A model generated the notes under the pieces. That model was not told where the DNA came from. It saw only the letters and a program-made list of their open reading frames with translations, and did not search any database. A stretch of 32,239 bases of DNA, taken from NCBI GenBank assembly GCA_014382585.1, contig JACNJL010000061.1, forward strand, positions 1-32,239, written 5' to 3'. Source of the stretch: Limisphaerales bacterium (GTDB lineage Bacteria; Verrucomicrobiota; Verrucomicrobiia; Limisphaerales; UBA1100). Each line of letters starts with the position of its first letter. The first letter of the stretch is position 1. This document shows positions 298-32,239 of the stretch, piece after piece. The position numbers and the translations under genes are program-made.

Positions 298-345
298 TAA
301 ACAGGCATTAAGCACAGATTTTTAACCCAAAAATGGAGGTAAACC

Positions 346-1059: not shown

Positions 1060-1077
1060 ACCCAAGAACGAATAACC

Positions 1078-2148: not shown

Positions 2149-2168
2149 CCCAAAAAGGGAACCAAGCC

Positions 2169-4142: not shown

Positions 4143-4170
4143 CTGAAAGAGTAAAATTGAAAGGAATAAT

Positions 4171-4440
4171 ATGAGTCCGGATTACACTGTAGAAATATTG
4201 AAAGGGTTGATGAGTCACGTACTGATGATCGCCGGCCCGCTGTTGCTTACCGGTTTGTGCGTGGGGTTGACGGTGAGTTTGTTCCAGGCCGTCACCTCGC
4301 TGCAGGAACAAACGCTCACGTTTGTGCCCAAGGCGTTGGCAGTGGGTGCGCTGTTGTTTCTCATCATGCCGTGGATGGTGCGCACGGTGATGGATTACAC
4401 CCGCGAAATCATTGAAAAAATGCCAGCCATGGCCGGATAA
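4171..4440 (+). CDS. fliQ: flagellar export gate protein FliQ
   Basis: An 89-residue protein with two membrane hairpin segments (about 12-35 and 48-70), the usual size and layout of FliQ. Family hallmarks are GLCVGLTVSLFQAVTSLQEQ and LTFVPK in the loop between them. FliQ wraps around the FliP/FliR core of the export gate. A good ribosome binding site (GAAAGGA) sits before the ATG, 28 bp after fliP. The last base of its TAA is the first base of the fliR ATG. Confidence 0.97.
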   Translation: MSPDYTVEILKGLMSHVLMIAGPLLLTGLCVGLTVSLFQAVTSLQEQTLTFVPKALAVGALLFLIMPWMVRTVMDYTREIIEKMPAMAG

Positions 4441-5210: not shown

Positions 5211-5213
5211 ATC

Positions 5214-6314: not shown

Positions 6315-6480
6315 TTGGGCGAAAAAGCTAAAAAATGACAAATTTCACCCAAAAATCAAAAAAACTGGCATCCCAATTGCTGCGTGGTGAGGGGTGCGCA
6401 TGGATGCGCGCTTTGACGGATTATCCGAAAATGACTGAAAATCAGCCAGCAACCCACGCCCTGGGAGGGCGTCGCGCGGT
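6315..6480 (+). promoter_or_regulatory. flhB-flhA spacer with hairpins, one overlapping the flhA ribosome binding site
   Basis: No gene is seen here. Three inverted repeats are visible. TTGGGCGAAA at 6315-6324 pairs with TTTCACCCAA at 6343-6352 with one mismatch. GCGCAT/ATGCGC at 6395-6408 forms a small palindrome. ACGCCC-TGGGA-GGGCGT at 6456-6472 contains the likely flhA ribosome binding site GGAGG (6464-6468, 12 bases before the ATG). The last could limit flhA translation when folded. This is a reading of the bases only. Confidence 0.35.
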
Positions 6481-8598: not shown

Positions 8599-8631
8599 AT
8601 GGTGGCCGGGCGGCCACGGTTCATCTGCCGA

Positions 8632-17500: not shown

Positions 17501-20500
17501 CGAGGCGCGTGTAGGCCGCGGCGTTTCCGGGTTGCAATTCGATGAGTTTACGGAACTTCAGGCGCGCTTCTTCAAAGCGTTCCAGTTGAAACAACTGCGA
17601 GCCAAGCGCATCAATGAGTAAGGGGTTATCCGGCTCTGCGAGCACGGCCTGTTCCAGCTCGGCAATCGCGGCTTCGGGATTGCCCGCGTCCAGAAAAAAA
17701 TCTGCCTGTTCCGCCGCGTTATTCGGTGTGGGTTTTTGTGGGACGACTTCCGGCGCAGCTTCAACGGCGGGCGTGACGATAGTTTCGCCTTGTTCAATCA
17801 CCTGCAAATTTTCGCGTGCGAGTTGGTCTTCCGAATCAAACTCCAGCAACTGGCGGTACGTATCCGCCGCCTGATCGGTGTTGCCCGTTTTGAATTGGCA
17901 AACCGCCAGGGCGTGCAGCAAGCCCGGCGTCACCCCGCCATCGGTAGCGATGCGGCTATAAATTTTCTTGGCCGAAACGTGGTCACCCGTGAGGAATGTA
18001 TAATCACCCAGCAACTGCATCGCCTCGCGGTTCTCCGGTTCTAAATCCAACGCCGTGACAAGGCACGCCTCAAACGCCTCGCGGTCGTCCGCGTGGAATG
18101 CCGCCAGCCCCAGCTGCAAATGCGCCACGACATCGTCGGGACACAACTCCGCCAGCGCGGCAAAATTAGTTCGCGCCTCGGCGAATTGGTCAGCGGCAAA
18201 CTGCTTGGCGCCCAGCGCGCGCAACAGCATCGGATGACGGTCGCTCAGCTCCAGCGCCTGCTTCAGCGCGGTGATAGCGCCGGTCACATCGTTTTGTTCG
18301 TGGCACTGCTCGGCTTTATCCAGCCATTCTTCCAGCGTGCCTTCGGGTAGTTGAGGAGTTTCGTTTGTATCGTTCATTGTTGAATCTGGGGTAATGGATT
18401 CGTCGGTTTGGTTTAAATTCGTTTCGGACGTGAAATCGCCTTCGCCATAATCGGGCTGATCACCACGGGCCAACCAGTCGAGTACCTGTCGCATCCGCAC
18501 TTCGGCGGTGTGATGCCGCAGCACTTTTGCGCGCGCGCGTTCTGCAATGCGCGCGGCGGCTTCGGGGTTTTTCTGCAATTTCAAAATAGCTTGTGCCAGT
18601 CCATAGGCATCTTCGCGTTTAAATAATTCAATTTCCTGCCCCGGCGCAAACAGCGCGCGCGTGCGGGCGCGGGGCGGATCCCACGAAATCACTGGCCGAC
18701 CCGCCGCCATAGTTTCCACCACACGACCGGCGTAGCATTTGAAAATGGACGGCAAATTCACCTGTGCGTAACTTTGCTGCAAGCCCTCCATCCACAGATC
18801 GTTCAAGCGTCGTCGCAGTCGGCGCAGGTTCACCAGATACTCCCCCAGCCAGGCCGGCTCGGCCACGTCGTAGAGGCTCACGCGATTAAGCGAGTTAATT
18901 TGCAGCACATCAAACTGCCGCGGGAAACCGGAGCCAATTTCAGGCAAAGGCGGTTGCGTTAACAACCCCTCGTTAATGGCCGACTCGAGCAGTGCCTTCC
19001 GCTCCAAATTATAAATCGTGCCCTGGAATGCCGCCGGTCCCGGCTCGGGCAAGGCTACCGCATCGCACACCTCGCGCCACGTGACCACCGGCGGGCACCA
19101 CATCGTTGGAATGCCCAGCTCCTCCGCGAGTGTTTCTGCATCGCGATCATCAAAAGTCAGCGCGTGCGTGCAATGCTGAAGCTGGCCCTTCACTTTTTCG
19201 CGCCGCCCGGCGAGATTGCCGTGTTGTTGCTCTTCCTCGGGCGTGTGCTCCAGCGATTCCATAATTACGCCCACGCGCACGTCGGTTTTGCTTTTGATCC
19301 AATCTAAAAAATCCGGGTCGTAATCGTTGTGTGTAATCCAAATCCACGCTTGATCAAATTCCTCGTGCAAAAACATATACTGCGCCTGGCCCAGCCACGA
19401 GGCGGGGTGATCCGAAGGCACACCCGCCAGCGCCGGCAGCGTTTTGAATTCCACTTCATTCGCCGCCAATCCTTCTTCTAGCGCATAAAATCCGTTGTAC
19501 GACCACGCCTTGGCGTTCTGCCAATTGCCGCACTCAAATCCCACCAACAGAATTTTTTGCTTCGGTCGCGCGCCCGTCGGTCTCACCAAATGCGCCGCCC
19601 GCTCGCTATCCACGCTCACCGTTTCAGCGGCCTCCTCAGCAAAGGGGTCGGCCGCCAAAGGCAGTGCTTCCTGGCCAGGGCGTTTCACCAAATCCACTTT
19701 GTCGTACTCGCTCGAGGAATACGAACTGCACACCGACCCTTTTTGAAAACGTTTATAACGGCTTTCCAATTCATCCAAGCCCGGCACCGGTTCGCCCAGC
19801 AGTTCATTGCATTTCACCAGCAACAAAAATGCTGGCTCCAAAATAATGCTGCGTCGCGCCAATTGATCCAGCAACACCACCGCCCGCGCCGCATCGCCCG
19901 GCTCGCGCCGGTGTAGCAGTGCCCGCGCCAGTGCGTAGCGGTAATATGGAAAATCCGGATTCCATTCCACCGCCTGCTCCAGCGGCGCCACCTCGCCGGT
20001 GTATTGTCCAAGGTAATGCGCGAGCGAAGCACGGATCAGGTTGGCCAACGGCTCACTCTTCACCGCGTCGTTGCCGAGCGCCTCGGTGAGCGTGTCGAAA
20101 TAGCTGCGATAATCAAAACACGTGCTGTGATAATCCCACGGCATTACATCCTCTTCGGCAAACACGCGCCAATGGTCGGCCGGTTGGGCGAGTAATTCGC
20201 GCGTAACCGCCAGCGCCTTTTCCACGCCCGCCGGATCGCCCAAATGGAATGCGTGCCGCAGCGCATTAAATCGCAACACGAGCGAATGCGGATGTTGTTC
20301 CCAGCCGTCCTTGTAAATATCCTTCGCTACTTTGTGCAGCAATTCATCTTCACGCTCGAAGGCTTCCACCATATCCAGCCGCTCGGAGCGATCCACCAAA
20401 TCCGGCATATCCGCAGTGAGATAAAGATCCAATTCGCGCGCGGCATTGATGGCCGGCCCGGCGTGTTCGGTTTTGCCGTGCTGCGCTTTGGCGCGCTCGA

Positions 20501-21869
20501 GGTTGTGTTTGAGATGAGCGTAGTTCACTGGAGGCGGATACATCCAACCGCGCGAAGTGATGACGCGTTTTTGGTGCGGCTGTGATTCGGCGCGGCCGTC
20601 CCTTCCGCCGCGCTCCTTGGCGATGGCCGCGCGCACGGTGAGAAAGCGTAGAAATTGCGAAATGCAAAGTGATTGCGAAAATTGCGTGCGCACCATTTTT
20701 CGACCGCGTTGGGCCGCGGCCCGATATGTTTCCCAGTCACCGGTGATTTTTTGCAGATTCTCCATCAAGTCATCCCGCTCGGTGTGATACGCCACCACGC
20801 CCTCGTTTTCGCCGGCGAACAATCGCAACGCACTTTCCTCCTGCGTCAGCACCGCGCACCCCATCGCCAGCGATTCGATGCCGCGCGAGGGCATGCTGCC
20901 CGGATGCCGCACGTAAGTGAACGACGCCTTGGCGCGGGCCATCTCGGCGTAATATTCGGCCGGGGCCAGAAACCCATCGATGCGTCGGATTTGGGCGCTG
21001 TCGTCTTTGATCCATTGTTGCAGCAAGCGCGCCTTGTCCGGATGATATGGGCTGCGCATGGTGCCGGAGATAAATAAATCCACATCACGCACACAATTCT
21101 CTTCCAGAATGGGAAGGCATTTCAAATCGATGCCGAACAATTTCGGAAACGTGCAAACCGCCCCCGGCCGCAACGCCCGCGCCTTGGCCCATTCCTCCGA
21201 GCCGACAGTGATGACCTCGTCAAACGCCGGCAAAATCGGTGCGTTGTTTTGGATATGCAAATCAAGATCCGAAGTGGTGCCAAAAGAAGGGCAGGGCAGG
21301 TCGCCCAGGTCATCGGGCAGAAATTGCCACTCAATCATATGCGCAAAATAAAAGTCCGGTGTGCCTTGGATCGCATCCCGTGCGCTTAGGAATGGCTTCA
21401 CCGGCCGACAATCCATGACAATGTCTCCGTGCTCATCGCGACGCGTGCGTTTCAGTCCAATCCGTTGCAGGGAAAATTTGTCATCCGAGAAATCTTTGTC
21501 CTCCCAAACCGTTTGCGCCACGACCTCAATGCGTTCCTTGCTGATGAGCCGCAACAACTCAGCCGCCTCCGGCAAATCCGATTCGCGTAAAACTTCTTTT
21601 GCCTCGTCCTCGCGCTTGGCCATCCACAACGATGCCGCAAAATAAAAACGCGCTTCGGGATCGGCCTCGTGTTCCAGTGCATCGAGGGCGAGGTCCATTC
21701 GGCCCACCAAACCCAATGCCGCAGCTTGACGCCACCCAGCAATGCCTTGATCGCCAGCAGCACCGCAGAAATTGCCCGCACGGAACCAGTCCGCAGCAGG
21801 CCCGAGGTCAACGGGTGGCAGCGAGTAATGACCCGCCTCCCTGGGGGGGGATTGCTTTGCAACATCCAT
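14505..21869 (-). CDS. giant TPR protein with three glycosyltransferase domains
   Basis: An uninterrupted 2454-residue protein. In order: an N-terminal GT-B domain of the CgeB/Glyco_trans_1_2 type (about 200-420; FTYVRHPGSMPSRGIESLAM near 315); a helical TPR-like region (about 430-750); a second CgeB-like GT-B (about 765-1140; KILLVGFECGNW at 770, VVETMAAGRPVISWD near 1045); an acidic Thr/Asn linker; a TPR array (about 1168-1765); a Gln/Glu linker and more TPRs; a GT2 domain (from about 1912; LSVCMIVKDEEE, VVDTGSTDRT near 1947, LDADEI near 1995); and C-terminal TPRs to the end. The GT2 part resembles SunS-type transferases. It probably builds or attaches a glycan on a protein, in the cytoplasm, since no signal peptide or membrane segment is seen. 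A run of eight C lies at codons 7-9. It is the last gene of the minus-strand glycan locus. Confidence 0.9.
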   Translation of the reverse strand: MDVAKQSPPREAGHYSLPPVDLGPAADWFRAGNFCGAAGDQGIAGWRQAAALGLVGRMDLALDALEHEADPEARFYFAASLWMAKREDEAKEVLRESDLPEAAELLRLISKERIEVVAQTVWEDKDFSDDKFSLQRIGLKRTRRDEHGDIVMDCRPVKPFLSARDAIQGTPDFYFAHMIEWQFLPDDLGDLPCPSFGTTSDLDLHIQNNAPILPAFDEVITVGSEEWAKARALRPGAVCTFPKLFGIDLKCLPILEENCVRDVDLFISGTMRSPYHPDKARLLQQWIKDDSAQIRRIDGFLAPAEYYAEMARAKASFTYVRHPGSMPSRGIESLAMGCAVLTQEESALRLFAGENEGVVAYHTERDDLMENLQKITGDWETYRAAAQRGRKMVRTQFSQSLCISQFLRFLTVRAAIAKERGGRDGRAESQPHQKRVITSRGWMYPPPVNYAHLKHNLERAKAQHGKTEHAGPAINAARELDLYLTADMPDLVDRSERLDMVEAFEREDELLHKVAKDIYKDGWEQHPHSLVLRFNALRHAFHLGDPAGVEKALAVTRELLAQPADHWRVFAEEDVMPWDYHSTCFDYRSYFDTLTEALGNDAVKSEPLANLIRASLAHYLGQYTGEVAPLEQAVEWNPDFPYYRYALARALLHRREPGDAARAVVLLDQLARRSIILEPAFLLLVKCNELLGEPVPGLDELESRYKRFQKGSVCSSYSSSEYDKVDLVKRPGQEALPLAADPFAEEAAETVSVDSERAAHLVRPTGARPKQKILLVGFECGNWQNAKAWSYNGFYALEEGLAANEVEFKTLPALAGVPSDHPASWLGQAQYMFLHEEFDQAWIWITHNDYDPDFLDWIKSKTDVRVGVIMESLEHTPEEEQQHGNLAGRREKVKGQLQHCTHALTFDDRDAETLAEELGIPTMWCPPVVTWREVCDAVALPEPGPAAFQGTIYNLERKALLESAINEGLLTQPPLPEIGSGFPRQFDVLQINSLNRVSLYDVAEPAWLGEYLVNLRRLRRRLNDLWMEGLQQSYAQVNLPSIFKCYAGRVVETMAAGRPVISWDPPRARTRALFAPGQEIELFKREDAYGLAQAILKLQKNPEAAARIAERARAKVLRHHTAEVRMRQVLDWLARGDQPDYGEGDFTSETNLNQTDESITPDSTMNDTNETPQLPEGTLEEWLDKAEQCHEQNDVTGAITALKQALELSDRHPMLLRALGAKQFAADQFAEARTNFAALAELCPDDVVAHLQLGLAAFHADDREAFEACLVTALDLEPENREAMQLLGDYTFLTGDHVSAKKIYSRIATDGGVTPGLLHALAVCQFKTGNTDQAADTYRQLLEFDSEDQLARENLQVIEQGETIVTPAVEAAPEVVPQKPTPNNAAEQADFFLDAGNPEAAIAELEQAVLAEPDNPLLIDALGSQLFQLERFEEARLKFRKLIELQPGNAAAYTRLAMAAEATDRTDEFESALGLAMEIDPDNPEMLRYLGKLNLEQERYYDAGVAFTQLATLEPDNPDNLLAMGVCLFRGGQIEIARETFERVLQLDPDNALALTNLEQLDNEPATETVTETESSVSPYDALASVESDVERILIHAHQTLETGDVEGTRLALEEGLVSHPDDLVLLNAIGNLFFREKRYAEAAEIYHRLTEITPDDAAPHSQAATSALFDGNVHLFNEHVSRLLEIDPENSTGLKLLATAKFRIGEFPEAAKLYARVLEANPEEVESTLALGMCFHKLKDNALAVSCFRRALEIDPYNATAASNLKALAEPTDESAEPETPSQNNGTVKAETVQQLQRETVSNENDGDLPPAALVGSLVASQDLLNQGEHLEAWNAALDCLARRPFHPEAWLHLAEIALDAGDEARALQCLDRLLALSPKWDVPVGVQANLKQKPALTTTDIAWPEPPAASETPRLSVCMIVKDEEEFILQAIKSVKDLAHQVVVVDTGSTDRTVALAESLGAEVHHFEWNENFSDARNYSLEHVTGDWVLILDADEILDPEGNDDLARDLYSENQLGFRIPLANFMRAEDQTLQQTGDGVTYVPRLFRNAPGLHFVGRVHEQIFSSIIVRQGHWGMDSGIGRTRLLHFGYDPSVKLSRDKVKRNLRLLDKAVEEMPDEPALLMNYALDLFNDGRIEEALTQNRHAMEVLSQHEPQHVMPEVRERLVSMFCFHLLQAEKYDELLEVAHSQLSKDCGPTASIHYVAALGLIKQGRHAEAIPELHACIEKSEEQTFTPRFRGVEAHGPYHLLADSLAETGDADGATEAFQKALEISPDAAGVRHGLGTFLVKNDRAEEAVQLLFAAIEKDVMTPTLWSLGCNIVNGHLNDTEIALHWTDCAAQDHPEHPEISKQRGIALLTAGQFENALPLFEGLPKHPANEAARLLCRFVLGQPARLTDADHEKAVSLALVEWTRRLLERGHEAPIQKLTENLKTLTATLPTAGQVLSEAALVS
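21843..21850 (-). repeat. C8 homopolymer at codons 7-9 of the giant glycosyltransferase gene
   Basis: Eight G's on the plus strand (C8 on the coding strand) fall inside the codons for Ser-Pro-Pro near the N-terminus. A second ATG, at 21880 in another frame, also reads into the tract, so a one-base slip would shift which start feeds the long frame. Confidence 0.9.
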
Positions 21870-22001: not shown

Positions 22002-23078
22002 CTATAAATTGAGCGCTGCTTCTAGGGTGCTCGAAAAGTTGCTATTCGGGGTGGGTTTGAGCGTTTTGGGCAGGGCTTGAATTGGTAGGATGGCGTTTTC
22101 ATCAATGGGTTTTCCCAATCGATTGGCTAATTGCTTTTTGGCGATGGGATTATTGGGGAAGCATCGATTGAGTTCGCGGAATTCCCGAATGACGTCCTCT
22201 TCGTTTCCAGTTTCCAATGCGCCTTGGGCGGTTGCTAAAAGAATTTGTTCCAATTCCGATGCGTTGGGTTTTACGCAAGGTTGTGATTGCGGACCGCCGG
22301 CGGCCTCGATATTGAGCGCCATATTGCGGGCCTGATTTTGCACCATTGTGCGGTAAAAATCGCTGGCGATAAAATCAAAGTTGATGCGCCGATCTGTGTC
22401 CCAGCGATCCGATTCGCGCGTGTCCACTTCATCGTGTAGCACGCGGTACACTTGGGGCTGATCCAAAAAGCGCGTGCGATTAAGTCCGTGATCTTCATAG
22501 AGATACCATTGGATGACCAATGACCACGCATCGGTAAAGGACACGTGGCCGAGTCCGCCACAAATTTCCAGCATCTTTCGGCTCCAAAACGGTCCTTCAT
22601 CGATGATCGCCAAGGCATCCATGTGGTCCAGATGGTAGTGCGGGTAAAAGGGTTGCTCTTGAAAGTGCGGCCGATAAAAGCACGGGTGCGGTCGTTGATG
22701 GATCATATAAATGCCATCGTCAAAATGGGTGGTTTCCGCAAGCACGGTGGTGTCCCAGTTGGGTTGGGTGACCACGAAATCATCCGCGAATGCGCCCATC
22801 ACAACGGAGCGATCATCGGCCAACATCATGGCGCGGGTGTAGCCGATGTGGATATCGATGTATCCGCGCCCTCGCGGCTCGACAATGTGTTTCACTGCGA
22901 AAGGATAATTTTTCAATTGCGGGAGATAGTCCGGCACCTTGGGATCACACGTGTCGAACTTCACGAGCACTTCAAAATTATTGTGATCGGCGCTGTAGTC
23001 GACCAAGCTTTGCAGCAGGTTGGGCAAGCCCCAGTTGGGGTTGCCCTCAATGCGGGAAGTGATGAGAAGGCTGATCAT
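22002..23078 (-). CDS. GT-A (GT2-like) glycosyltransferase
   Basis: A 358-residue protein starting ISLLITSRIEGNP, a typical first beta strand of GT-A glycosyltransferases, followed by LPNLLQSLVDYSADHNNFEVLVKFD cut into the usual strand-helix-strand order. The putative metal/nucleotide site is AFADDFVV at residues 96-103. A long frame reaches back to 23180, but the ATG at 23078 is chosen: it gives the family N-terminus and overlaps the stop of the preceding gene as ATGA. The C-terminal 60 residues look helical and TPR-like. The acceptor and donor are unknown. It lies in the putative phosphoramidate-glycan operon, right after a sulfotransferase-like gene. Confidence 0.8.
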   Translation of the reverse strand: MISLLITSRIEGNPNWGLPNLLQSLVDYSADHNNFEVLVKFDTCDPKVPDYLPQLKNYPFAVKHIVEPRGRGYIDIHIGYTRAMMLADDRSVVMGAFADDFVVTQPNWDTTVLAETTHFDDGIYMIHQRPHPCFYRPHFQEQPFYPHYHLDHMDALAIIDEGPFWSRKMLEICGGLGHVSFTDAWSLVIQWYLYEDHGLNRTRFLDQPQVYRVLHDEVDTRESDRWDTDRRINFDFIASDFYRTMVQNQARNMALNIEAAGGPQSQPCVKPNASELEQILLATAQGALETGNEEDVIREFRELNRCFPNNPIAKKQLANRLGKPIDENAILPIQALPKTLKPTPNSNFSSTLEAALNL

Positions 23079-23878
23079 GCTTGTATGGTGTTTAGGGTTC
23101 GTTTGTTGAGCAAGTCGCCCAGTTTTTCGCGGGCGGTATTTCGGCTGGCGGATTTGTAACGGGCGTGGGTGCGCGCCCACTCGCCGTCGCGTTCATAATT
23201 CCATTGGCGCATCACGCCGCCCAATTCCTCGTGGAATTTCAGCGCCACATCGCCACTAAATTGATTAGCCCAGTCGCCGGAAATGCCTTTGCGGAACAGG
23301 TATTGGGAGCGCACGGTTTCACCCGATTGGCCACGCCGACGTTGAGTGACATTTTCAAAACTATGTCGCGCACACGATTCCTGTAGCGCGGCATCGGTGG
23401 CCGGCACTTCGGCAAAATCCAAAATATGGCGAAGCCCGATTGGAATGTTGCGTTTTAATTGTTCAAAAGTGATGTTCAAAATGTTTGTTTGTTCGAGTGC
23501 CCGCCAGGAATTCGCATCGTCAAACATATCGCCGAAATTGGATTCAACATATTCAATATACAATTCATTTTCCGTTTTGCCTTCGTGCAAATCTCGGTGA
23601 ATGATATCTTTCACGTGCGACACCAGCACATCGCGCGGGTCGCGAGTGAGGCAGATAAATCGAAAATCATCCCGCGCCACAAAATCGCCAAACAGTTCCG
23701 GGCCGCTGTGAGTCCAGTGGAATGCGCGTTTGCCATCGGCCACATCCGCCTTAAATTGTTCCAGCTCCGAAGGGCCGGAGAAAAATTTGCAGCCCGCCAT
23801 CTGCGCGAACTCTTCCAGCACCGGCATTACAATGGATGCCCCGGCGTTGGGTAGATTGTAAAAGACAACGTGTTTCAT
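23075..23878 (-). CDS. sulfotransferase-fold protein, putative phosphoramidate transferase
   Basis: A 267-residue member of the PAPS-dependent sulfotransferase fold. The region that binds the 3'-phosphate of the donor is well kept: LTRDPRD at 77-83 with Ser87, and RKGISGDW at 196-203. The N-terminal loop that normally reads PKSGTTW and holds the 5'-phosphosulfate is instead YNLPNAGAS (residues 7-15), without the usual Lys, Ser and Thr. A shared FHWTH block is at 53-57. It is clearly paralogous to the second half of the fusion protein at 27242-28675. From that context I suggest it moves phosphoramidate from 3'-phospho-CDP-phosphoramidate to a sugar; ordinary sulfation is the alternative. It starts four bases after the methyltransferase gene and overlaps the next gene by four. 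Confidence 0.75.
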   Translation of the reverse strand: MKHVVFYNLPNAGASIVMPVLEEFAQMAGCKFFSGPSELEQFKADVADGKRAFHWTHSGPELFGDFVARDDFRFICLTRDPRDVLVSHVKDIIHRDLHEGKTENELYIEYVESNFGDMFDDANSWRALEQTNILNITFEQLKRNIPIGLRHILDFAEVPATDAALQESCARHSFENVTQRRRGQSGETVRSQYLFRKGISGDWANQFSGDVALKFHEELGGVMRQWNYERDGEWARTHARYKSASRNTAREKLGDLLNKRTLNTIQA

Positions 23879-23882
23879 AAAT

Positions 23883-24629
23883 TTAATCTTTCAATTGCGC
23901 GGCCCACAAGCGAGTGGTGTAGCCGACGGCCAACACTTTGCCGTGTGCCCCCGTGATGGCTTCGATGCCGCCGATGATGCCGTCGAACGCTTCGCCCGCT
24001 TGGCGTTGTAGCGTGCCGTGCGAGCGCCACGCTTCCACGTACGCCTCTGCCGGAACCCGCGCCACATACGAGGCTTCGATGAACATCGGCTCTTTAAAAA
24101 TACCGCTTTCGCGAATGACTTCCGTTTGATCTTCACGCCGCGAGCCGTAGCCGTAGCCGTCGATGCGACTCTTGATGTAATCCTCCACCTCGGCTTGAAG
24201 TGAGTGGTTCAAATCACGGTGGTTCCACAGACACGCAAACCATCCGCCGGGGTGCAGAATGCGTTGCGTTTCGCGCAGGGCGGCTGGGCGGTCGGTGGTA
24301 TTAAATGAAGAACCAAAGGTGACTGCGTCAAAGGCATTATTCGGCTGGCCGGTGGCTTCGCCGGTGCCCACGTGCCATTGCACGGGTTTATTGGCGGTGA
24401 CGCTCATTCCCACCGCGCGCATCGCGTCGTTGGGTTCCACAGCGGCGACATTGCAACCGCGAGCCACGAGCAATTTGGTGAGGTGCGCAGAGCCCGCGCC
24501 CACATCGCACACGGCGGCATTCGCGCGCAGCTCGGCGAGGTCACAAAAACGCACTACCGCTTCCACGGCATAATCCGGCCGATTCAAATAATGCGGCGCC
24601 AGTTTGGTATAGTCCCATTTTGTTTTCAT
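23883..24629 (-). CDS. SAM-dependent methyltransferase (class I, type 11-like)
   Basis: A 248-residue Rossmann methyltransferase. The SAM-binding motif I is VCDVGAGSAHL at about 40-50, with the acidic strand end AAVEPNDAMR, a motif near FDAVTFGSSF and the post-motif ILHPGGWFACLWN. The N-terminus has YTKLAPHYLNRPDY, matched by FTKLASDYSSCRPDY in the paralogue at 26463-27227. Candidate substrates in this locus are the phosphoramidate group, as with the methyltransferases Cj1419/Cj1420 beside the Campylobacter phosphoramidate genes, or a glycan hydroxyl. The sequence alone does not decide. It sits in the operon 28 bp after the TagF-like gene and four bases before the sulfotransferase-like gene. 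Confidence 0.85.
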   Translation of the reverse strand: MKTKWDYTKLAPHYLNRPDYAVEAVVRFCDLAELRANAAVCDVGAGSAHLTKLLVARGCNVAAVEPNDAMRAVGMSVTANKPVQWHVGTGEATGQPNNAFDAVTFGSSFNTTDRPAALRETQRILHPGGWFACLWNHRDLNHSLQAEVEDYIKSRIDGYGYGSRREDQTEVIRESGIFKEPMFIEASYVARVPAEAYVEAWRSHGTLQRQAGEAFDGIIGGIEAITGAHGKVLAVGYTTRLWAAQLKD

Positions 24630-24657
24630 TTTTGTATGGTCAGGATTCAGGGTTAGT

Positions 24658-26460
24658 TTACGTGATTTGTAATTGTGGGGTTTGGGCCGGGGTTTCGTAT
24701 TTCAAATTATGTCCGTTTCCCTGCAGATGCCGGGCTAATTGCCGGTGAGCTTCTGCTTCGCCGTCCATATGAAGATTGGTGAAGGCGTCAGCGAGCCGGT
24801 TGTGGTTGCCGATATCCCACGGGTTAAGTTCGACCGCGAGAAAGAGTGGGGAAAGTGATTCCGCGTGGCGTCCGAGCAGCATTTCCAACTGGCCCAACGC
24901 ACTGACCACCCCTTCGTGGTCGGGTGATTCACTGAAGCCCTGTTGCAGTTGGTCCCGTGCGGTGGTGGCGGTGGAAGGTGCGAGAAATGCCTGGCTGCGT
25001 TCGAGGGCCGCATCGCCCAGATGCATATGGTGTTGCGTCCGCTGGTGCCAATGGGTGGCATCGCCTTCAAGGTTGCCGTGTGCGCCGCGCGGGGTGGGGA
25101 GGATTCCGTAATATCGCCAGTCCGGATGGGGTTCGTCGTTCAGAATGTAGTGGATGCTATCCGCAAAATAATGCGCCGATCGGCCGGGATTGAACACGGC
25201 TTGTTCACGGGTATGTTGAATTTTTTCGCGATACAATTCCGGGTGGTCCAGAGCGTGGCGTATGGCTTGGACGAGTGCTTCGCAATCCGTTGCCACTTGG
25301 CCGACCTCATTCCGGAAGCGCGCAAAGGCGCACTGCTTCACGGAATCCGGGAGGTTGGCTTCGTTGTGTGAAAAGAAAATCGTGGGCTGTTGGTTGGCGA
25401 GGGAGAAGGTGTACGCCGCGCTCGAGAAATCAGAAACCATCACAGCTGTTTTTGCGTAGCAGTCGTGGTAGTTGCCGCCGGATTGGTCGTGCACGAAGTT
25501 GGGATAGCGGGAACCGATCTCGAGAATGGGCAGGATGGTTTCGGGCTGTTCGTCCGCATATGGCTTGAAAACAACCGGCCGCTCGGGGAAAGCGTGCAAT
25601 AGGGCCTCCATAATTTGAGGTCCATGGGAGTGAATGGAAACGAAGGGTTTCCAGTGGTCTTTTCCCACCACCGGGGTGGGGGCATAGGTGATGTTCTCTC
25701 GCGGTTGGGTGTGCGCTTCGGCCCGGTGCATTCCTTCATCCAACGAGGGATAGCCCAGTGGGATGACGCATTGGCTTTGGGCGAGCCGCTTGGGTTTCAG
25801 TCGGTCCGCCAATCTTTTGTGCTCGAGAAGGTTTTTTTCGTTCGTGGGGCGGTTGGCAGTGAAGGGATGAGAAATCGCCGGTTGCTGGTACATCTGGAAA
25901 GCGTGTTCACAGGATTCAACAAACTCTGGGGTGGCCACGGAAATGTAATCATACAGACGCCAATACGCGGTCATATGAGTATGCTTGGTGACGAGTTCTT
26001 CATCGGAAAGCGGGCGATCCGTTTCCGCTGCGGAGGCTTCGGGCTTGCCGGTGTGGAATGGAATTCCACCGAATGAGCCGTGCACCATTAACATTTTACG
26101 GGATTCATCCGGGAGTGAATCCATAATGGTCGGCACCATAAACAGATCTATAAACCCGAGGTGATCCAGGATTTTGCCCCAAACTCGGTAAGCGTGCGGA
26201 TGGTTTTCATAGTCGTCCAGATGCCGCTCGCAGTAGAGGCGGATGACGTGGATGCCGCGTGCTTCGAGTTCCTCCGGGATGGTTCCGAACAGTTTTCGGA
26301 AAGATTTGGTCGGGCAAAAGATGGCCACCGAGCGCTTGTTGGGCGGGGTGTCGCGCAGAATCCGGCCCGCCTGCCAGCGGCTTGCCGGATCCAGAAAACG
26401 GCTCGCACCAATGCGCTGGAGCCAGCCGTCGTGATTCATCGGTTTATCAATTCCCGTCAT
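24658..26460 (-). CDS. TagB/TagF-like (CDP-glycerol glycerophosphotransferase-type) GT-B protein
   Basis: A 600-residue protein. Its centre matches the CDP-glycerol:glycerophosphate transferase superfamily, best seen in VMVSDFSSAAYTFSL and the following PTIFF at about 338-358, the site that binds the nucleotide donor, and in an earlier PVVFKPYADEQPE block. In teichoic acid enzymes this fold transfers glycerol- or ribitol-phosphate; in Gram-negative capsule loci relatives add phospho-polyols or sugars. The last 120 residues look like TPR helices (LGQLEMLLGRHAESLSPLFL). The reaction here is open: it could make the polymer that the locus decorates. The start is two bases after the stop of the upstream methyltransferase gene. 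A later ATG at codon 8 is possible. Confidence 0.75.
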   Translation of the reverse strand: MTGIDKPMNHDGWLQRIGASRFLDPASRWQAGRILRDTPPNKRSVAIFCPTKSFRKLFGTIPEELEARGIHVIRLYCERHLDDYENHPHAYRVWGKILDHLGFIDLFMVPTIMDSLPDESRKMLMVHGSFGGIPFHTGKPEASAAETDRPLSDEELVTKHTHMTAYWRLYDYISVATPEFVESCEHAFQMYQQPAISHPFTANRPTNEKNLLEHKRLADRLKPKRLAQSQCVIPLGYPSLDEGMHRAEAHTQPRENITYAPTPVVGKDHWKPFVSIHSHGPQIMEALLHAFPERPVVFKPYADEQPETILPILEIGSRYPNFVHDQSGGNYHDCYAKTAVMVSDFSSAAYTFSLANQQPTIFFSHNEANLPDSVKQCAFARFRNEVGQVATDCEALVQAIRHALDHPELYREKIQHTREQAVFNPGRSAHYFADSIHYILNDEPHPDWRYYGILPTPRGAHGNLEGDATHWHQRTQHHMHLGDAALERSQAFLAPSTATTARDQLQQGFSESPDHEGVVSALGQLEMLLGRHAESLSPLFLAVELNPWDIGNHNRLADAFTNLHMDGEAEAHRQLARHLQGNGHNLKYETPAQTPQLQIT

Positions 26461-26462
26461 AA

Positions 26463-27227
26463 CTATTTCCTGTTAACCGTCCAAGCGCGGGTTTTGTAGG
26501 GCACCACGACTTTTTCCAAGTGGCTAATTTTTTCTCGGATGGCATCCAGTAACTGAGGGAACAATTCCGGCCCGGCTTGGGCCTGAATGTCGTTCACCGA
26601 GCGCCAAGCACCGAGGTAACGTTTGTGGCTCATTGCAATTTCGTGGCGGGCTTCCATAAAAATGCAATCGGTGAACTGGCCGGTCGACTGGAGGTCATCG
26701 GTCCAATCGCGGGAATTTTTTGCGCGACCGGATGACACTCGTTTGAGATTTGGCAGCCGGTCGTGGATGCCTTGTTCAATATTTTCGTGCAGTTCATTGC
26801 CATCAATATTGCGCGGATTCCACAAAATGGTGAGGTGTCCGCCGGGTTTCAGAATGCGATGAAATTCCGCCAGCGCAACCGGCGTATCCGCCCAATGAAA
26901 TGAGGAAGCCATCGTCACCCAGTCTACGCTGGCATCGGGCAGATTAGTGGCTTCGGCCAGTCCATCGTGCCAATCGATATCGTAATCCGCAGTGAAGCGG
27001 ATGCCTTCCGCGCGCATATTATCACACGGCTCAACCGCTGTGGTTTTCAATCCTGTCTGCGAGAGCATCCGGCTCCAGATGCCGGTGCCCGCGCCCACAT
27101 CCGCCACGGTCGTTGCGCGCGTATGGGTGAGCAAAGTCTGCAACACGCTTTGCGAGTAATCCGGCCGACACGAGGAATAGTCGCTCGCTAGTTTAGTGAA
27201 ATCGCCTTGCTTGATTGTAGAATTCAT
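26463..27227 (-). CDS. SAM-dependent methyltransferase (paralogue of 23883-24629)
   Basis: A 254-residue class I methyltransferase with VADVGAGTGIW at 41-51, TAVEPCDNMRAEG after the second strand, SVDWVTMASSFHWAD and a HRILKPGGHLTILWN block. The open frame extends to 27446, but the extra 73 residues lie over the upstream gene and lack family character. The ATG at 27227, 14 bp after that gene's stop, gives the N-terminus shared with the paralogue. As in Campylobacter phosphoramidate loci, two methyltransferases occur with the phosphoramidate genes, so methylation of the transferred phosphoramidate is a fair guess for one or both. The catalytic target cannot be read from sequence. Confidence 0.85.
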   Translation of the reverse strand: MNSTIKQGDFTKLASDYSSCRPDYSQSVLQTLLTHTRATTVADVGAGTGIWSRMLSQTGLKTTAVEPCDNMRAEGIRFTADYDIDWHDGLAEATNLPDASVDWVTMASSFHWADTPVALAEFHRILKPGGHLTILWNPRNIDGNELHENIEQGIHDRLPNLKRVSSGRAKNSRDWTDDLQSTGQFTDCIFMEARHEIAMSHKRYLGAWRSVNDIQAQAGPELFPQLLDAIREKISHLEKVVVPYKTRAWTVNRK

Positions 27228-27241
27228 TTTCTTTTGTTTGT

Positions 27242-28675
27242 TTAATTTAAGTTGGTCCTCGGGTTGGATTGAAAGAGGGATTGAATTTGTTGCTCGGGGC
27301 TGAATCGCGAGTAGCCGGTTAACGAGTTCAGTCGGTCGGTCATTTGTTCCAACTGCAATAAGCTGGCAAACAGCGTTCCGTTTGAGCTGTGCTTGTGTTT
27401 TTGCGCGTGAGCCTCGGCCCAGTTGCCGTTGGGTTCGTAGCCCCACGCCCGAAGATACCGGCCAAACCGGCGTTGAAACATCCGCGCGGTGGAGCCATCG
27501 AAATGATTTGCCCAGTCGCCGCTAATGCCTTTGCGCGGTAGATACTTGTTGCGAATGGGTTGGCCGGATTCACCTCGCTGTTGACCGGTCACGGATTCAA
27601 AGCTGTGTTTTTCGCACAACTGCCGCATGGGAGCGCGATTCATGGGCTGCAGCCCGATAAATTCCAGCAACTGCGCCATGAACGTGGGGATGTCGCGCTT
27701 CATTTCTTCAAAGCTGATTTGGAACACATTTGGCTGCTCTAACGCGTGCCAGGCGTGGGCCTGTTCAAAACGCTGTTCGAAGCCGGATTGAATGGCTTCG
27801 CGGCAAAGGGTCCGCATCGATTTGCCCTCGGCGTGAACCGTCTGCAAAACATTTTGAAGAAACGACACCAGCGTATCGCGCGGATCGCGGGTGAGGCTGA
27901 TGAACCGGACGTCGTCGCGATTCAGTTCGGCCGCAAAAGTTTCCAGCGGGTGATGGGTCCAATGGAAAATCGGGGCGTTTAATTTTAGCAAGTCATGAAA
28001 GCGATGCGTCTCATTCGGACTGGCGAGATTGGCGTACCCCTCCGCTTCAAGTAATTCCTCGAGGATGGGCACCAGTGCGCCTCCACCTGCATGGGTGGGG
28101 TTATAAAATACCACGTGCGGCCGTTGCGAAAGCGGATGCAGGCCGAGGGCGGATTGCAGGAGTTCATTTGCCAGTTCGGTTGCCGGTCGCAGTGGTGAAT
28201 TGTTGGTTAACACTAAATCGGGATTGGCGGGGCGATCGTATTCAAGGTCGAAGCCGGCCACGTTTTGCACTTCCCCGCGGGCTGCGCGGCTGTAAAGGCC
28301 GCGGGCATCGCGTTCGCATAATTCGGCCCAGTCGACTTCCAGCCAGATTTCAAAATAGTTGGGCAAGTGCGCGCGGTTCCATTCGTGGATTTCGCGAAAG
28401 AGCGACATCGTGGGCACGATGACGGTTTGCCCCTGCTCGGCCAAAAGCTGCGCGAGGCGGCTGATGCGGTAGGCGTTGGCAAGGCGGCTGGTGATGTCGT
28501 GGCCGGTTTTGGAATCAGCGATGGCGGTGCGCACGGCGTCGCCATCGAGCACCACGGGGCGCTCACCGCGGGCGCGCAATTGCTCGGCGGCGGCGTGGGC
28601 GATGGTGCTTTTGCCGGAGCCGGAAAGTCCGGTAATCCAAAGCACGCGGCCTTCGTTGGTTAAATGTTCGGTCAT
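27242..28675 (-). CDS. APS-kinase-like domain fused to sulfotransferase-like domain; putative CDP-phosphoramidate kinase/transferase
   Basis: A 477-residue two-domain protein. Residues 10-175 are an adenylylsulfate-kinase-type P-loop kinase: ITGLSGSGKST (14-24), LDGDAVR (43-49), ERDARGLYSRAARGEVQN (121-138) and an ANPDLVL end. Residues 186-430 are a sulfotransferase fold with LTRDPRD (261-267), Ser271 and RKGISGDW (381-388), but YNPTHAGGG (191-199) where PKSGTTW is expected. Campylobacter Cj1415, an APS-kinase homologue, phosphorylates the 3'-OH of CDP-phosphoramidate. With matching neighbours I infer that the N-terminal half makes 3'-phospho-CDP-phosphoramidate and the C-terminal half uses it. 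A bifunctional PAPS-making sulfotransferase is the alternative. The ATG at 28675 overlaps the preceding stop (ATGA); the frame reaches 28723. Confidence 0.85.
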   Translation of the reverse strand: MTEHLTNEGRVLWITGLSGSGKSTIAHAAAEQLRARGERPVVLDGDAVRTAIADSKTGHDITSRLANAYRISRLAQLLAEQGQTVIVPTMSLFREIHEWNRAHLPNYFEIWLEVDWAELCERDARGLYSRAARGEVQNVAGFDLEYDRPANPDLVLTNNSPLRPATELANELLQSALGLHPLSQRPHVVFYNPTHAGGGALVPILEELLEAEGYANLASPNETHRFHDLLKLNAPIFHWTHHPLETFAAELNRDDVRFISLTRDPRDTLVSFLQNVLQTVHAEGKSMRTLCREAIQSGFEQRFEQAHAWHALEQPNVFQISFEEMKRDIPTFMAQLLEFIGLQPMNRAPMRQLCEKHSFESVTGQQRGESGQPIRNKYLPRKGISGDWANHFDGSTARMFQRRFGRYLRAWGYEPNGNWAEAHAQKHKHSSNGTLFASLLQLEQMTDRLNSLTGYSRFSPEQQIQSLFQSNPRTNLN

Positions 28676-29451
28676 GCGGTCACAGCAGTCACACTGTCTT
28701 CCCAGCGCCAATCGTGATCCCAATTGGGGCGGTCGAGGCGTTCTTCGTACAGGCGCAGATCGGTTTCGCTATCCACTTCGCACCAGCGGCCCCGGGTGGG
28801 GGTGGCGTTGATTTCCGCGCCGTCTTCCAATAACAATTGGAGCAGCGAAGTCATGTCCAGCCGGTCGCGCCGCGCCTTGGGCAGGTCGTCGAGGATTACC
28901 TCGATGCGGCGCCAACCGGCTGGAGAAATTTTTAGGAGACCCATATATTGGCCTTCAATGTCGGCAACCTCGACCGCGCGATCGCCGATGGATTGCAGCG
29001 CGCCGTTGTCGCGCAGCCGGAACGTTTCGGCGTCTTCCAGCGGATCAGCAAAGCGTTCGCTCCAAAGCGGCAGCCATTCTTGATCGTAGCTAATGGCTAG
29101 TTCGCCGGGGTTGAGAATAAGCTGCTCGAGAATGGCGGGGTGATAAACGATGTCGGAATAGGACACAATGCAGTCATCGCGCTGGAGCCATTGGCTGGCG
29201 CAGGCGAGGGTGCTGACCATATTGGTGCGGGCCCAATCGGGATTTTCAAACCAAATGCAATCGGTGGGATTGAGGGATTCGGCAAGGTACCCGCGCACAA
29301 TGGCGATGTCGCGAATGCCGGCGGCACGGAGTGCGCCGAGCTGCCATTCGAGCAGCGTGCGCCCGGCGAAGGGCGTGAGGCATTTCGGGTGATCTTCGGT
29401 GAGGCCTCCCATTCGGGAGCCGCGTCCGGCTGCTAAGATGATCGCGCGCAT
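28672..29451 (-). CDS. nucleotidyltransferase, putative CTP:phosphoglutamine cytidylyltransferase
   Basis: A 259-residue NTP-transferase (GT-A-like Rossmann) protein. It has the nucleotide loop LAAGRGSRM at 6-14, HPKCL at 21-25, WARTNMVSTL at 73-82 as in LicC-type cytidylyltransferases, and a likely metal Asp in SYSDIVY (Asp100). CTP is the expected nucleotide from relatives such as Cj1416, which joins CMP to L-glutamine phosphate to give CDP-L-glutamine; a sugar-1-phosphate or choline-phosphate substrate remains possible. The frame is open to 29814, but the ATG at 29451, four bases after the amidotransferase stop, gives the canonical MRAIILAAG start. It overlaps the kinase-transferase gene by four bases. 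Confidence 0.85.
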   Translation of the reverse strand: MRAIILAAGRGSRMGGLTEDHPKCLTPFAGRTLLEWQLGALRAAGIRDIAIVRGYLAESLNPTDCIWFENPDWARTNMVSTLACASQWLQRDDCIVSYSDIVYHPAILEQLILNPGELAISYDQEWLPLWSERFADPLEDAETFRLRDNGALQSIGDRAVEVADIEGQYMGLLKISPAGWRRIEVILDDLPKARRDRLDMTSLLQLLLEDGAEINATPTRGRWCEVDSETDLRLYEERLDRPNWDHDWRWEDSVTAVTA

Positions 29452-29455
29452 AATT

Positions 29456-30100
29456 TTATTTCTCCCAACCAAGAGTGGTGCACAGCAGGTTTCGATCCAG
29501 TTGCACCTGTAAGTTATCCCCATCGCGTTCGGGATGCCATTGCACGGCGGCGATGGGCGCGGCGCGGTGGCGCACGGCTTCCACGCAGCCATCATCGCTA
29601 GCGGCCAGCAGTTCGAGCGATGGTGCCAGCGTGTTCGCGGGCACGGCCCAGTTGTGAAATGAATTAACCGTGGCGCGTCCGGGCGCATCGAATTCCAGCA
29701 AATCTGTTCGCAAATGCACGGTGTGTTTTTGGGCCAAATGTGTTTTGGGCTCGCACCGGCGTAGTGCGCCGCCGCCGCGTTGTTGCAGCAATTGCATCCC
29801 GCGGCACACGCCAAAAACAGGCAGTGCGTTGCGCACGGCGTGATCGATCACAGTGTTTTCGGTTTTGTCGCGAATGGGACAAGTGCCAAGGTCATTGCCG
29901 CCGGATAATATAAATCCATCGAGTTGCCAGTGTTGGATAAACTCCGCCACCGCCGCGCCGAGGTTTGGGACGGGCACCCACGCCACGTCCGGTGCGAACG
30001 CGGCCATATAGCGCGCCCAGTCTTGAGCGAGACAATCGCGCGGTTCACCGGAACCGGCGGCTTGTCCCACTCTCATTGTAATGCCAATACGTTCAGCCAT
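29456..30100 (-). CDS. class I glutamine amidotransferase-fold hydrolase, putative CDP-glutamine hydrolase
   Basis: A 214-residue protein of the gamma-glutamyl hydrolase (peptidase C26/class I GATase) type. The catalytic triad is visible: Cys99 in VFGVCRGMQLL, and His189 and Glu191 in AVQWHPERD. FILSGGNDLG at 63-72 is the oxyanion-region motif. In the Campylobacter pathway the homologue Cj1417 cuts glutamate from CDP-L-glutamine and leaves CDP-phosphoramidate; the same role is inferred here from the neighbouring kinase and cytidylyltransferase. The ATG at 30100 was chosen. Another at 30115, eight bases inside the upstream gene, is possible; both follow a repeated TTTATGGCT. Neither has a good ribosome binding site. 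Confidence 0.85.
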   Translation of the reverse strand: MAERIGITMRVGQAAGSGEPRDCLAQDWARYMAAFAPDVAWVPVPNLGAAVAEFIQHWQLDGFILSGGNDLGTCPIRDKTENTVIDHAVRNALPVFGVCRGMQLLQQRGGGALRRCEPKTHLAQKHTVHLRTDLLEFDAPGRATVNSFHNWAVPANTLAPSLELLAASDDGCVEAVRHRAAPIAAVQWHPERDGDNLQVQLDRNLLCTTLGWEK

Positions 30101-30107
30101 AAATTGT

Positions 30108-32239
30108 TTAGCCATAAATTGGCCGGAGTAATTTTGCCGCGCCATCGAGTTCCACCCGGTTGGCCGCGGCAATGCGTTCAAAGGTTTGTTCGCCCACGCC
30201 AATGGCCGCGGGCAGGCCGAGCTCGGCGCAGCGGATGGTCATGTGGCTGTTGGCCCCGCCGAACTTGCTGACAAGACCGGCGATGTTGCGCGTGAAAATC
30301 CAGTCAAACCCCGGATCAGCATTCTCAATGCAAATGATGCGGCCGCTGAGTTGGCCGTGGCCACGCGATTGGTTGCCCAGTCGCAGCGGCTCGCCTTCCA
30401 CGTGGCGGTTGCCCACAAAGTTCGGCGCGCTGCGGTGCATCGGCACCACATAAAAATCACCCGGATCGCGGATGAGGAAACCCAGGCGAATGCCGTCAAC
30501 GTTTTCCTGTTCGCGGCGGCGTTGTTCCACGAGATCTTCAAAGTGCAGCTCGGGATCGTTGAGCACCGGGCTGACAAGATGATTGAGCAAATCCTGCACG
30601 GAAAGATGCGAGAGCGCATCGCGATCCAGCCGCGTGTCGCTGCCCCAATGGGCAATCAATTCCAGTGCATCGGAAAGGTGACGGGTGAAAATAAACTTGG
30701 CGCGCTCGCGTTCGGTGATGGCTTGGCGTGCGTACTCGATGAATTGTCCCGGCTCCACCTCGGACATTCCCGCTGCGGCAAAGAGTTTTTGGAACGACTG
30801 CGCCTCCGCGCGGGTGAGCGGAAAAATGGCATCACTGGTGGCCGGCTCGGGCTGGGCGGTGGCGGCAAATAAATCATCGCGTTGATCGTACCGCGGCGAG
30901 GTGATGTCATACGTGCCCGGGCGCAAGTGGCCGTACTTGGCGAGAAACTCCGGACGCCGTCGCGGTTGCGCGAGGGCGTCGGCAAAGTCGCCGGTGAAAT
31001 CCGCCGTCACCGTGCGCAGCGTGCGCTTAAACGCCGCCAGTCGTTTGGCCGAAAGCGCGCCGCGTGTCACGGCTGAACGCAGAATGGCTTCTGCCATAAA
31101 CGCGTGCCGCGCGATGACCGAAAAGGGACGTGTGCCCAGCGCGCGGCATTCTTCGAGCAACAGCGGGAGCCGCGCCAAATCGTTGAGTGAACGCCGTTGG
31201 GTTTGTAGCGCCTCGAGTTGCTGGATTTTTTCCAGCGCCACCGGCAACGAAGCGCCGGGCGCCAGGCTGAGATTGGTGGCGGTCACTTGGGCGAGCAGAT
31301 TGCGGTAATCGAGATACTCATCCGGCTCGAGCACATCGCCGTAGCGGTTTTGGAAATCTTCGTCGAAATTAAAATCCAATACCGTCTGCGCCACATCAAA
31401 CTCGACTTTGTCGTGCAGCTTCGGGTTGGCCTCGAGGCGGTCGAGCCACGCATCGACCAATCGCTCGCGCGTTTCGATGGGCAACCCGGCGGGCAGAAAA
31501 GAATTAAAACTTGCGCGCACATCGATGTACGGCTGGCCGCCCAGCGTGAGCATCAGCGGTGTATTCGGCACCGGTTGATAGCCCATCTCCGCGCGGGCCT
31601 CTTGCCAAATGGAATCGGTGATGAGATGCCGGTACAGCGAAATCGCCAGCGGCCGCGGGCGCGTGCCGATGATCTCTGCGGGATTCCAGTCGGGCATCTG
31701 CCCGAGAATCGTGCGCGCGCCAGCTAGTCCCACGCGTGGTTGAGCGTGGCGCGTGAAAAATTCGCCGGATTGAAACAACACCTCGCTTACGTGACGGCTG
31801 ATGCGGCGGTTCCAGTTTTCCTGCACCGTGATGCGTCGCACTTGCAGCAAATGCAATTGACCATCGCGAGATTTTGCAAATTCAATATCTAACGGCGTGC
31901 CGCGATCACACAAGCCTTCCAGCTCGCGCGCCAGCTCCAGCAACTCCGCCACGCGCGGCGAATCGACGTGATCGGTCACATAATCGCGATGCACCAAAAC
32001 CGTTTTATTGACCACGCTGCCGCCGGTGATGGTATCGGTCTTGCCGGTTTCGTCATCGTAATTCAGCACATAATACGGTGCGCCGCTGTCCAGCTCGTGC
32101 GTCATAATTACGCCACTCAAAGTCACATCCGTCACCATCGTCATCACTAGGACTTGGTTTTCCGGGCACTCATCCATCGACTCGATGACCTCTTCCACCG
32201 CGCTCCACACCGCCCGCGGTTGGCTGCTGTCCACGTCCA
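30108..32239 (-). CDS. PEP-synthase-like phosphotransferase, putative glutamine kinase (5' end outside window)
   Basis: At least 709 residues are present and the frame runs off the window at 32239, so the N-terminal ATP-grasp part is cut. The visible start has the end of an ATP-grasp domain (LDIEFA, then LLQVRRI). A long helical middle carries GQMPDWNPAEIIG and LAISLYRHLITDSIW. The C-terminus is the PEP-utiliser swivel domain with FGGANSHMTIRCAELGLPAA; its His, 45 residues from the end, is the likely phospho-carrier. True PEP synthases have a TIM-barrel PEP domain after the His, which is absent. This layout matches the Campylobacter glutamine kinase Cj1418 (ATP + glutamine to glutamine phosphate), the first step of phosphoramidate synthesis. 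The other pathway enzymes follow directly. Confidence 0.82.
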   Translation of the reverse strand, partial: DVDSSQPRAVWSAVEEVIESMDECPENQVLVMTMVTDVTLSGVIMTHELDSGAPYYVLNYDDETGKTDTITGGSVVNKTVLVHRDYVTDHVDSPRVAELLELARELEGLCDRGTPLDIEFAKSRDGQLHLLQVRRITVQENWNRRISRHVSEVLFQSGEFFTRHAQPRVGLAGARTILGQMPDWNPAEIIGTRPRPLAISLYRHLITDSIWQEARAEMGYQPVPNTPLMLTLGGQPYIDVRASFNSFLPAGLPIETRERLVDAWLDRLEANPKLHDKVEFDVAQTVLDFNFDEDFQNRYGDVLEPDEYLDYRNLLAQVTATNLSLAPGASLPVALEKIQQLEALQTQRRSLNDLARLPLLLEECRALGTRPFSVIARHAFMAEAILRSAVTRGALSAKRLAAFKRTLRTVTADFTGDFADALAQPRRRPEFLAKYGHLRPGTYDITSPRYDQRDDLFAATAQPEPATSDAIFPLTRAEAQSFQKLFAAAGMSEVEPGQFIEYARQAITERERAKFIFTRHLSDALELIAHWGSDTRLDRDALSHLSVQDLLNHLVSPVLNDPELHFEDLVEQRRREQENVDGIRLGFLIRDPGDFYVVPMHRSAPNFVGNRHVEGEPLRLGNQSRGHGQLSGRIICIENADPGFDWIFTRNIAGLVSKFGGANSHMTIRCAELGLPAAIGVGEQTFERIAAANRVELDGAAKLLRPIYG

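Follow-up and report, generated by a model that had tools for sequence, protein, structure and literature searches.

A 32,239-nucleotide stretch of contig JACNJL010000061.1 (positions 1 to 32,239; hereafter the window), part of a 3.7 Mb draft genome of a Limisphaerales bacterium (GCA_014382585.1), encodes two sulfotransferase-like domains, ST1 and ST2, in which the 3'-phosphate site is kept and the 5' loop is changed. We consider it likely that both are phosphoramidate transferases that use 3'-phospho-CDP-NH2 (CDP, cytidine diphosphate) as donor within a flagellin-glycan island. The observations behind this are the fold of a predicted model, the motifs, the loop change, the operon, linkage across lineages, and the phylogeny of a kinase; from them we infer the identity of all substrates and of the acceptor, the chemistry, and the point at which methylation takes place. 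The features that carry the argument are as follows.

23075..23878, minus strand: ST2, a stand-alone sulfotransferase-fold domain of 267 aa, type A (see below), predicted phosphoramidate transferase; PF00685 1.8e-21, AlphaFold2 model, loop K to N
23834..23854, minus strand: altered 5' loop of ST2, LPNAGAS, residues 9-15; aligned on PKSGTT of ordinary sulfotransferases, strand-loop-helix in the model
23618..23644, minus strand: 3'-phosphate site of ST2, RDPRDVLVS, residues 79-87; fits the PF00685 consensus RxxxDxxxS, at positions invariant in type A
27242..28672, minus strand: fusion protein in a single frame, N-terminal APS-kinase-like domain (APS, adenosine 5'-phosphosulfate; predicted CDP-NH2 3'-kinase) and C-terminal ST1; PF01583 3.1e-35 and PF00685 7.1e-22
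about 27242-28120, minus strand: ST1, predicted type A transferase domain, C-terminal part of the fusion; PF00685 7.1e-22

The paralogues ST2 and ST1 share 42% identity over 267 aa (E 6e-72), and their PF00685 matches begin downstream of the 5' loop, at profile positions 69 and 54, respectively. ST2 carries MKHVVFYNLPNAGAS, FHWTH, RDPRDVLVS, RGQSG, and RKGISGDW, and ST1 carries HVVFYNPTHAGGG, FHWTH, RDPRDTLVS, RGESG, and RKGISGDW. The original prediction that both retain RDPRD with a downstream Ser together with RKGISGDW, and share FHWTH and a GQSG/GESG motif, was borne out, positions included: RDPRDxLVS fits RxxxDxxxS, the 3'-phosphate consensus of PF00685 (PMC11625862), and RKGxxGDW is present in both. 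The catalytic-base His is also kept, as T56-H57 of FHWTH align on the TH of THLP in mouse SULT1D1 (2zpt). Retention of these motifs is not due to chance, because ten type A proteins, drawn from four lineages, all have the same residues (ST2 numbering) at H54-W55-T56-H57, R79-D80, R82-D83, and S87, as well as at G183, G186, R190, R196, G198, G201, and W203.

One review treats a basic residue, Lys or Arg, of the 5'-phosphosulfate loop as belonging to the definition of a sulfotransferase (PMC11625862). When 14 ordinary sulfotransferases are aligned with the two domains, this position is Asn in ST2, His in ST1, and Asn or Tyr in their relatives. PNAGAS of ST2 falls on PKSGTT with the Gly retained and Lys replaced by Asn; across the two paralogues, Thr-Thr has become Ala-Ser or Gly-Gly, and Trp has become Ile or Gly. 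YNLPNAGAS of ST2 and YNPTHAGGG of ST1 do differ from PKSGTTW, as had been predicted, but the loop that was said to be lacking is, from the alignment and the model, substituted in place rather than absent. The ST1 version is a local derivative, since other members of the genus carry YNLPNSGAS in ST1. As the defining Lys or Arg is absent, ST1 and ST2 should not be filed as sulfotransferases.

The AlphaFold2 model of ST2 (predicted local distance difference test score 84.9, predicted template modelling score 0.79) has a sulfotransferase fold. It matches SULT7A1 with 3'-phosphoadenosine 5'-phosphate (PAP; 5x2b; Z 18.2, root-mean-square deviation 3.4, 216 aligned), and residues 1-230 align with SULT-PAP entries at Z 16-18; nearly all of the 50 matches listed are sulfotransferases. 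Around the loop, the model has a strand (3-8), the loop itself, and a helix (18-27), and this arrangement, together with alignment to SULT-PAP structures from residue 1, indicates that the loop has been remodelled in place.

The two domains belong to a tight minus-strand operon that runs from 32234 down to 22002 in the order glutamine-kinase-like protein, hydrolase, nucleotidyltransferase, kinase-ST1, methyltransferase MT1, PF04464 protein, methyltransferase MT2, ST2, and glycosyltransferase-like protein. A scan with a glutamine-kinase alignment gave no fewer than 544 relatives, spread over many phyla, from which 80 loci were kept; with three from the window's phylum, 83 loci were compared. 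The glutamine kinase is accompanied by the hydrolase in 75, by the nucleotidyltransferase in 76, and by an APS-kinase-like protein in 66 of these, and in a minority it adjoins sulfotransferase-fold proteins. Two families lack the loop Lys/Arg: type A has a FxNLPNAGAS-like loop, and type B has an APFSCGISWL-like loop that keeps W or F. Type A occurs in five lineages (the window's genus, L053/G409, G416, plasmid AZO_p6 of Azospirillum lipoferum 4B, and G799), all of which have pathway genes, directly beside the transferase in four. Type B adjoins the glutamine kinase in L033, L103, L048, and Azospirillum. Both types lie within about 12 kb of a whole operon on the Azospirillum plasmid, are joined in one protein in G409, and occur on separate contigs in G416. 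Within the window's genus, five relatives have the glutamine kinase and four of them have the transferase pair; the pair was not seen in the fifth (G388), possibly because its glutamine-kinase gene sits at a contig end. Neither the glutamine kinase nor the pair was found in G392, a genome that is 73% complete.

The Azospirillum plasmid (L228, NC_016588.1, 19851-60552) holds the whole island in an annotated record. The annotated start of its type B protein removes the loop, and its kinase bears a long N-terminal extension of unassigned kind. By eye this extension resembled a sulfotransferase, an assignment that we rejected as no Pfam model matched at 0.01.

The changed loop is also rare away from the pathway. 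With all sequences read, the Lys/Arg is missing in 10 of 23 glutamine-kinase-linked proteins and in 5 of 98 unlinked ones, the latter being homologues rather than "proven" sulfotransferases; a Fisher test on these counts is descriptive only, because the linked set was partly gathered with type A and B seeds and kin were counted separately. Four of the five unlinked exceptions are in genomes that have a glutamine kinase, and the other 93 proteins keep Lys or Arg. A type A profile run against 387 genomes of the window's phylum recovered as Lys/Arg-less proteins the window pair and the known L033 protein, and the 16 other readable proteins keep Lys or Arg, mostly in PKSGNT-like loops. A full-length glutamine kinase scored over the cut-off in four of the 387, including both genomes with the three Lys/Arg-less proteins. 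In 385 genomes of another class, a type A-like profile found one new type A protein by transferase sequence alone, in G799, which belongs to another phylum. Its gene directly adjoins genes for a nucleotidyltransferase (49% identical to the window's) and a hydrolase (40%). The glutamine-kinase search of G799 gave no match, but the 4.8 kb contig with its type A gene stops within the gene for the amidotransferase; as the glutamine kinase follows this gene in relatives, the assembly probably breaks at that point. The original prediction of a changed donor group is therefore supported by linkage that recurs in five lineages, with 3'-phospho-CDP-NH2 as the predicted donor, and the altered loop is not equally common elsewhere. 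The split by glutamine-kinase linkage that it proposed separates the homologues in part, as 13 linked proteins keep Arg.

On a small alphaproteobacterial contig (L269:2752-4799), genes for a nucleotidyltransferase and an amidotransferase neighbour that of a type A transferase, and the contig ends inside the amidotransferase gene. G637 (L239; L271:434-1837) encodes a sulfotransferase-like protein with a Lys-less loop, FPGCGSN, that belongs to neither type A nor type B; a pathway gene was not found on its 7 kb contig, and the genome was not searched for glutamine kinase. No relatives of ST2 were found in phages and viral contigs.

The kinase domain fused to ST1 separates from APS kinases in a tree. 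It shares the PF01583 fold and P-loop with APS kinase (CysC), yet scores 131.6 on TIGR00455, under the cut-off of 138.7. Among the 74 domains of this tree, six APS kinases, three of them from solved structures, are divided by a branch (support 100/94) from 65 kinases of glutamine-kinase loci, including that of the window. Most APS kinases have FTGID in the lid, within FTGIDxPYE, where the kinases of glutamine-kinase operons have NVVGVDIPF-like lids and the window kinase has NVAGFDLEY. By sequence, the predicted 3'-kinase of the window is thus distinct from APS kinase. The fusion is conserved within the genus and ties the kinase's 3'-phosphorylated product to the transferase domain.

These findings bear on the most serious alternative, that ST1 and ST2 are ordinary sulfotransferases with an odd loop that use 3'-phosphoadenosine 5'-phosphosulfate (PAPS), fed by the fused domain as an APS kinase, the phosphoramidate genes being mere neighbours in a glycan island. 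PF00685 membership and the retained 3'-phosphate and base residues are as this would have it, and loops can vary, since Arg replaces the Lys in Stf0 (PMC11625862). The genome encodes CysD, and the window kinase is the sole APS-kinase-like domain detected in it. However, the Lys/Arg that the review counts into the family's definition (PMC11625862) is replaced, the fused kinase falls outside the APS kinases in the tree, and the loop and the pathway are linked in five lineages while 93 of 98 other sulfotransferases keep the residue. We therefore consider this explanation unlikely.

The remaining genes of the operon, all on the minus strand, are:

30108..32234, minus strand: glutamine-kinase-like protein, truncated by the contig end; NF004508/PRK05849, 808 bits against a cut-off of 501
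29456..30100, minus strand: class I glutamine amidotransferase-like hydrolase, predicted gamma-glutamyl-CDP-amidate hydrolase, start uncertain; PF07722 2e-24, best NCBIfam match NF045546 9.5e-28
28672..29451, minus strand: nucleotidyltransferase, predicted phosphoglutamine cytidylyltransferase; PF12804 1.3e-20, a homologue adjoins the glutamine kinase in 76 of 83 loci
26463..27230, minus strand: S-adenosylmethionine (SAM) methyltransferase MT1; PF08241 3.1e-17, missing from the operons of the congeners L037 and L065
24658..26460, minus strand: CDP-glycerol glycerophosphotransferase-like protein, accessory; PF04464 1.4e-6, missing together with MT1 in L037 and L065
23883..24629, minus strand: SAM methyltransferase MT2, predicted phosphoramidate O-methylation; PF08241 1.5e-14, a 55% identical protein in the L033 operon
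22002..23078, minus strand: glycosyltransferase-like island protein; a weak TPR match is its sole Pfam domain, homologue in the Gammaproteobacterium G409

The model matched by the first of these is titled "hypothetical protein"; this PRK05849-family protein is a putative counterpart of the Campylobacter glutamine kinase Cj1418. The homologue of the last lies at L201:5038-6078 (judged by eye), within an island that also holds a type A transferase. Among the congeners, the PF04464 protein is confined to those with the extra methyltransferase and a PTHAGGG ST1 (the window and L089, not L037 or L065). Scans for promoters and terminators gave sites no more numerous than in shuffled sequences.

By gene family, the operon has the same steps as the O-methyl phosphoramidate (MeOPN) pathway of Campylobacter jejuni, Cj1415-Cj1418 (glutamine-kinase-like, amidotransferase-like hydrolase, nucleotidyltransferase, and APS-kinase-like). 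It differs in belonging to another phylum, in its flagellar rather than capsule gene setting, and in the fusion of the kinase to a transferase domain. Individual enzyme assignments in the Campylobacter pathway have reportedly been made in papers of the Raushel group. That pathway leads from glutamine by way of N-phospho-glutamine to 3'-phospho-CDP-NH2, a reported intermediate (PMC6429109).

In the route that we propose, the operon would yield N-phospho-glutamine, then CDP-glutamine, and then CDP-NH2, to which the ST1-fused kinase domain would add a 3'-phosphate; the product, 3'-phospho-CDP-NH2, is analogous to PAPS in structure. ST1 and ST2 would then work like sulfotransferases: their retained R/S and RKG sites would hold the 3'-phosphate of the donor as sulfotransferases hold that of PAPS, the FHWTH histidine would serve as base, and a phosphoramidyl group, in place of a sulfuryl group, would pass to a sugar hydroxyl with release of 3'-phospho-CMP (CMP, cytidine monophosphate). 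In sulfotransferases, the loop Lys stabilises the bridging oxygen; the remodelled loop, with Asn at this position in ST2, may instead accommodate P-NH2. The methyltransferases of the operon fit O-methylation, and the O-methyl ester could be made afterwards or on the donor. The presence of two paralogues suggests that two positions on the acceptor are modified, by analogy with the transferases Cj1421 and Cj1422 of Campylobacter (PMC3907429). ST1 and ST2 share the fold, the 3'-phosphate site, RKGxxGDW, and the catalytic-base His with cytosolic PAPS sulfotransferases (PF00685; SULT7A1 5x2b, SULT1E1, SULT2A8), and differ from them in the Asn or His for the loop Lys, the replaced Thr-Thr and Trp, and the phosphoramidate-operon setting.

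The operon also offers another candidate, in that the PF04464 protein (24658-26460) could be the phosphoramidate transferase, using CDP-NH2 directly, with the sulfotransferase-fold domains doing something else, such as sulfation. CDP-NH2 resembles CDP-glycerol, and a PF04464-type gene stands beside the kinase in another glutamine-kinase operon. Yet the gene is missing, along with MT1, from congeneric operons that retain kinase-ST1 and ST2, neither the L053 nor the L033 operon was seen to contain it, and 3'-phosphorylation would be purposeless, which makes this assignment improbable. That ST1 and ST2 bind 3'-phospho-CDP-NH2 or the product without transfer, as an inactive scaffold or regulator, is the least probable reading. 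Catalysis could have been lost along with the catalytic Lys, and the window ST1 (PTHAGGG) has drifted beyond its orthologues, but type A proteins keep the FHWTH histidine and both 3'-phosphate motifs with little or no variation, and each operon would be left without an obvious transferase.

Several points weigh against a role of ST1 and ST2 as phosphoramidate transferases. The CysD encoded in the genome means that APS and perhaps PAPS chemistry exists in this organism. The amidotransferase-like hydrolase reaches 97.6 bits on NF045546, under the curated cut-off of 250, and the substrates are assigned by inference throughout. The loci retrieved included none from Campylobacter, and its transferases Cj1421 and Cj1422 serve here as an analogy. 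The type A gene and the glutamine kinase are on different contigs in G416 and for one of the two copies in G409. Lastly, 13 sulfotransferase-fold proteins beside the glutamine kinase retain Arg, so a change of donor need not accompany loss of the basic residue. In view of these 13, and of the many operons without a detectable sulfotransferase-fold protein, we gave up the idea of a Lys-less transferase in each glutamine-kinase operon. As judged from the sequences, Lys/Arg loss marks two families, A and B, and not every possible phosphoramidate transferase.

Arg-keeping linked proteins often have an altered Thr-Thr (GGS, GKS, GSI). Those with a changed Thr pair are at L066:13534-14841 and 16348-17343, L110:8745-9749, L098:16501-17784, L042:731-2101, and L055:6633-9442, with the loops RSGGS, RSGKT, RCGKS, RCGGD, RSGSI, and RSGSF; they are possibly further phosphoramidate transferases.

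The acceptor is probably a flagellin glycan, judging only by gene position, as the island adjoins flagellin and flagellar export genes. In the congeners, a flagellin gene lies a few genes upstream of the glutamine kinase, followed by genes for a flavin adenine dinucleotide (FAD) oxidoreductase, epimerase, nucleotidyltransferase, GHMP kinase, dehydrogenase E1, transketolase-like protein, aminotransferase, and radical SAM protein. In the window, a flagellar export cluster (bases 1-9768, read from translations) lies on the other side of the island. Seven verrucomicrobial and proteobacterial loci (L089:358-1179, L065:498-1319, L052, L057, L058, L063, and L067) have a flagellin gene within 10 kb of the glutamine kinase. 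Between the island and the flagellar genes, the window encodes a 2454-aa repeat-rich protein with glycosyltransferase-like stretches (14505-21869).

Whether, more broadly, a sulfotransferase-fold class in several bacterial phyla has exchanged PAPS for 3'-phospho-CDP-NH2 as donor and places (methyl) phosphoramidate on flagellin glycans seems to us evenly balanced. Campylobacter is the sole source of the modification in a 2019 review (PMC6429109), and a 2025 paper still leaves the attachment of methyl phosphoramidate to the Campylobacter capsule to future work (PMC12409886). If the proposal is true, the last step of phosphoramidate transfer gains a named fold and mechanism, the 3'-phosphate on CDP-NH2 gets a reason, the P-N pathway proves widespread, and "sulfotransferase" annotations may be wrong for proteins that lack the loop Lys/Arg.

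Glutamine-kinase operons of a second subtype (L067:8432-9750, L061:8265-9716, L098:12659-14165, and L111:7108-8921) encode an unassigned protein of ~200 aa, sometimes kinase-fused, and a formyltransferase-like protein (PF00551). In the glutamine-kinase operon of G828 (L272:15258-15953), the methyltransferase is followed by a 232-aa protein without a Pfam match that begins FIFPHYTGFTMTHESL.

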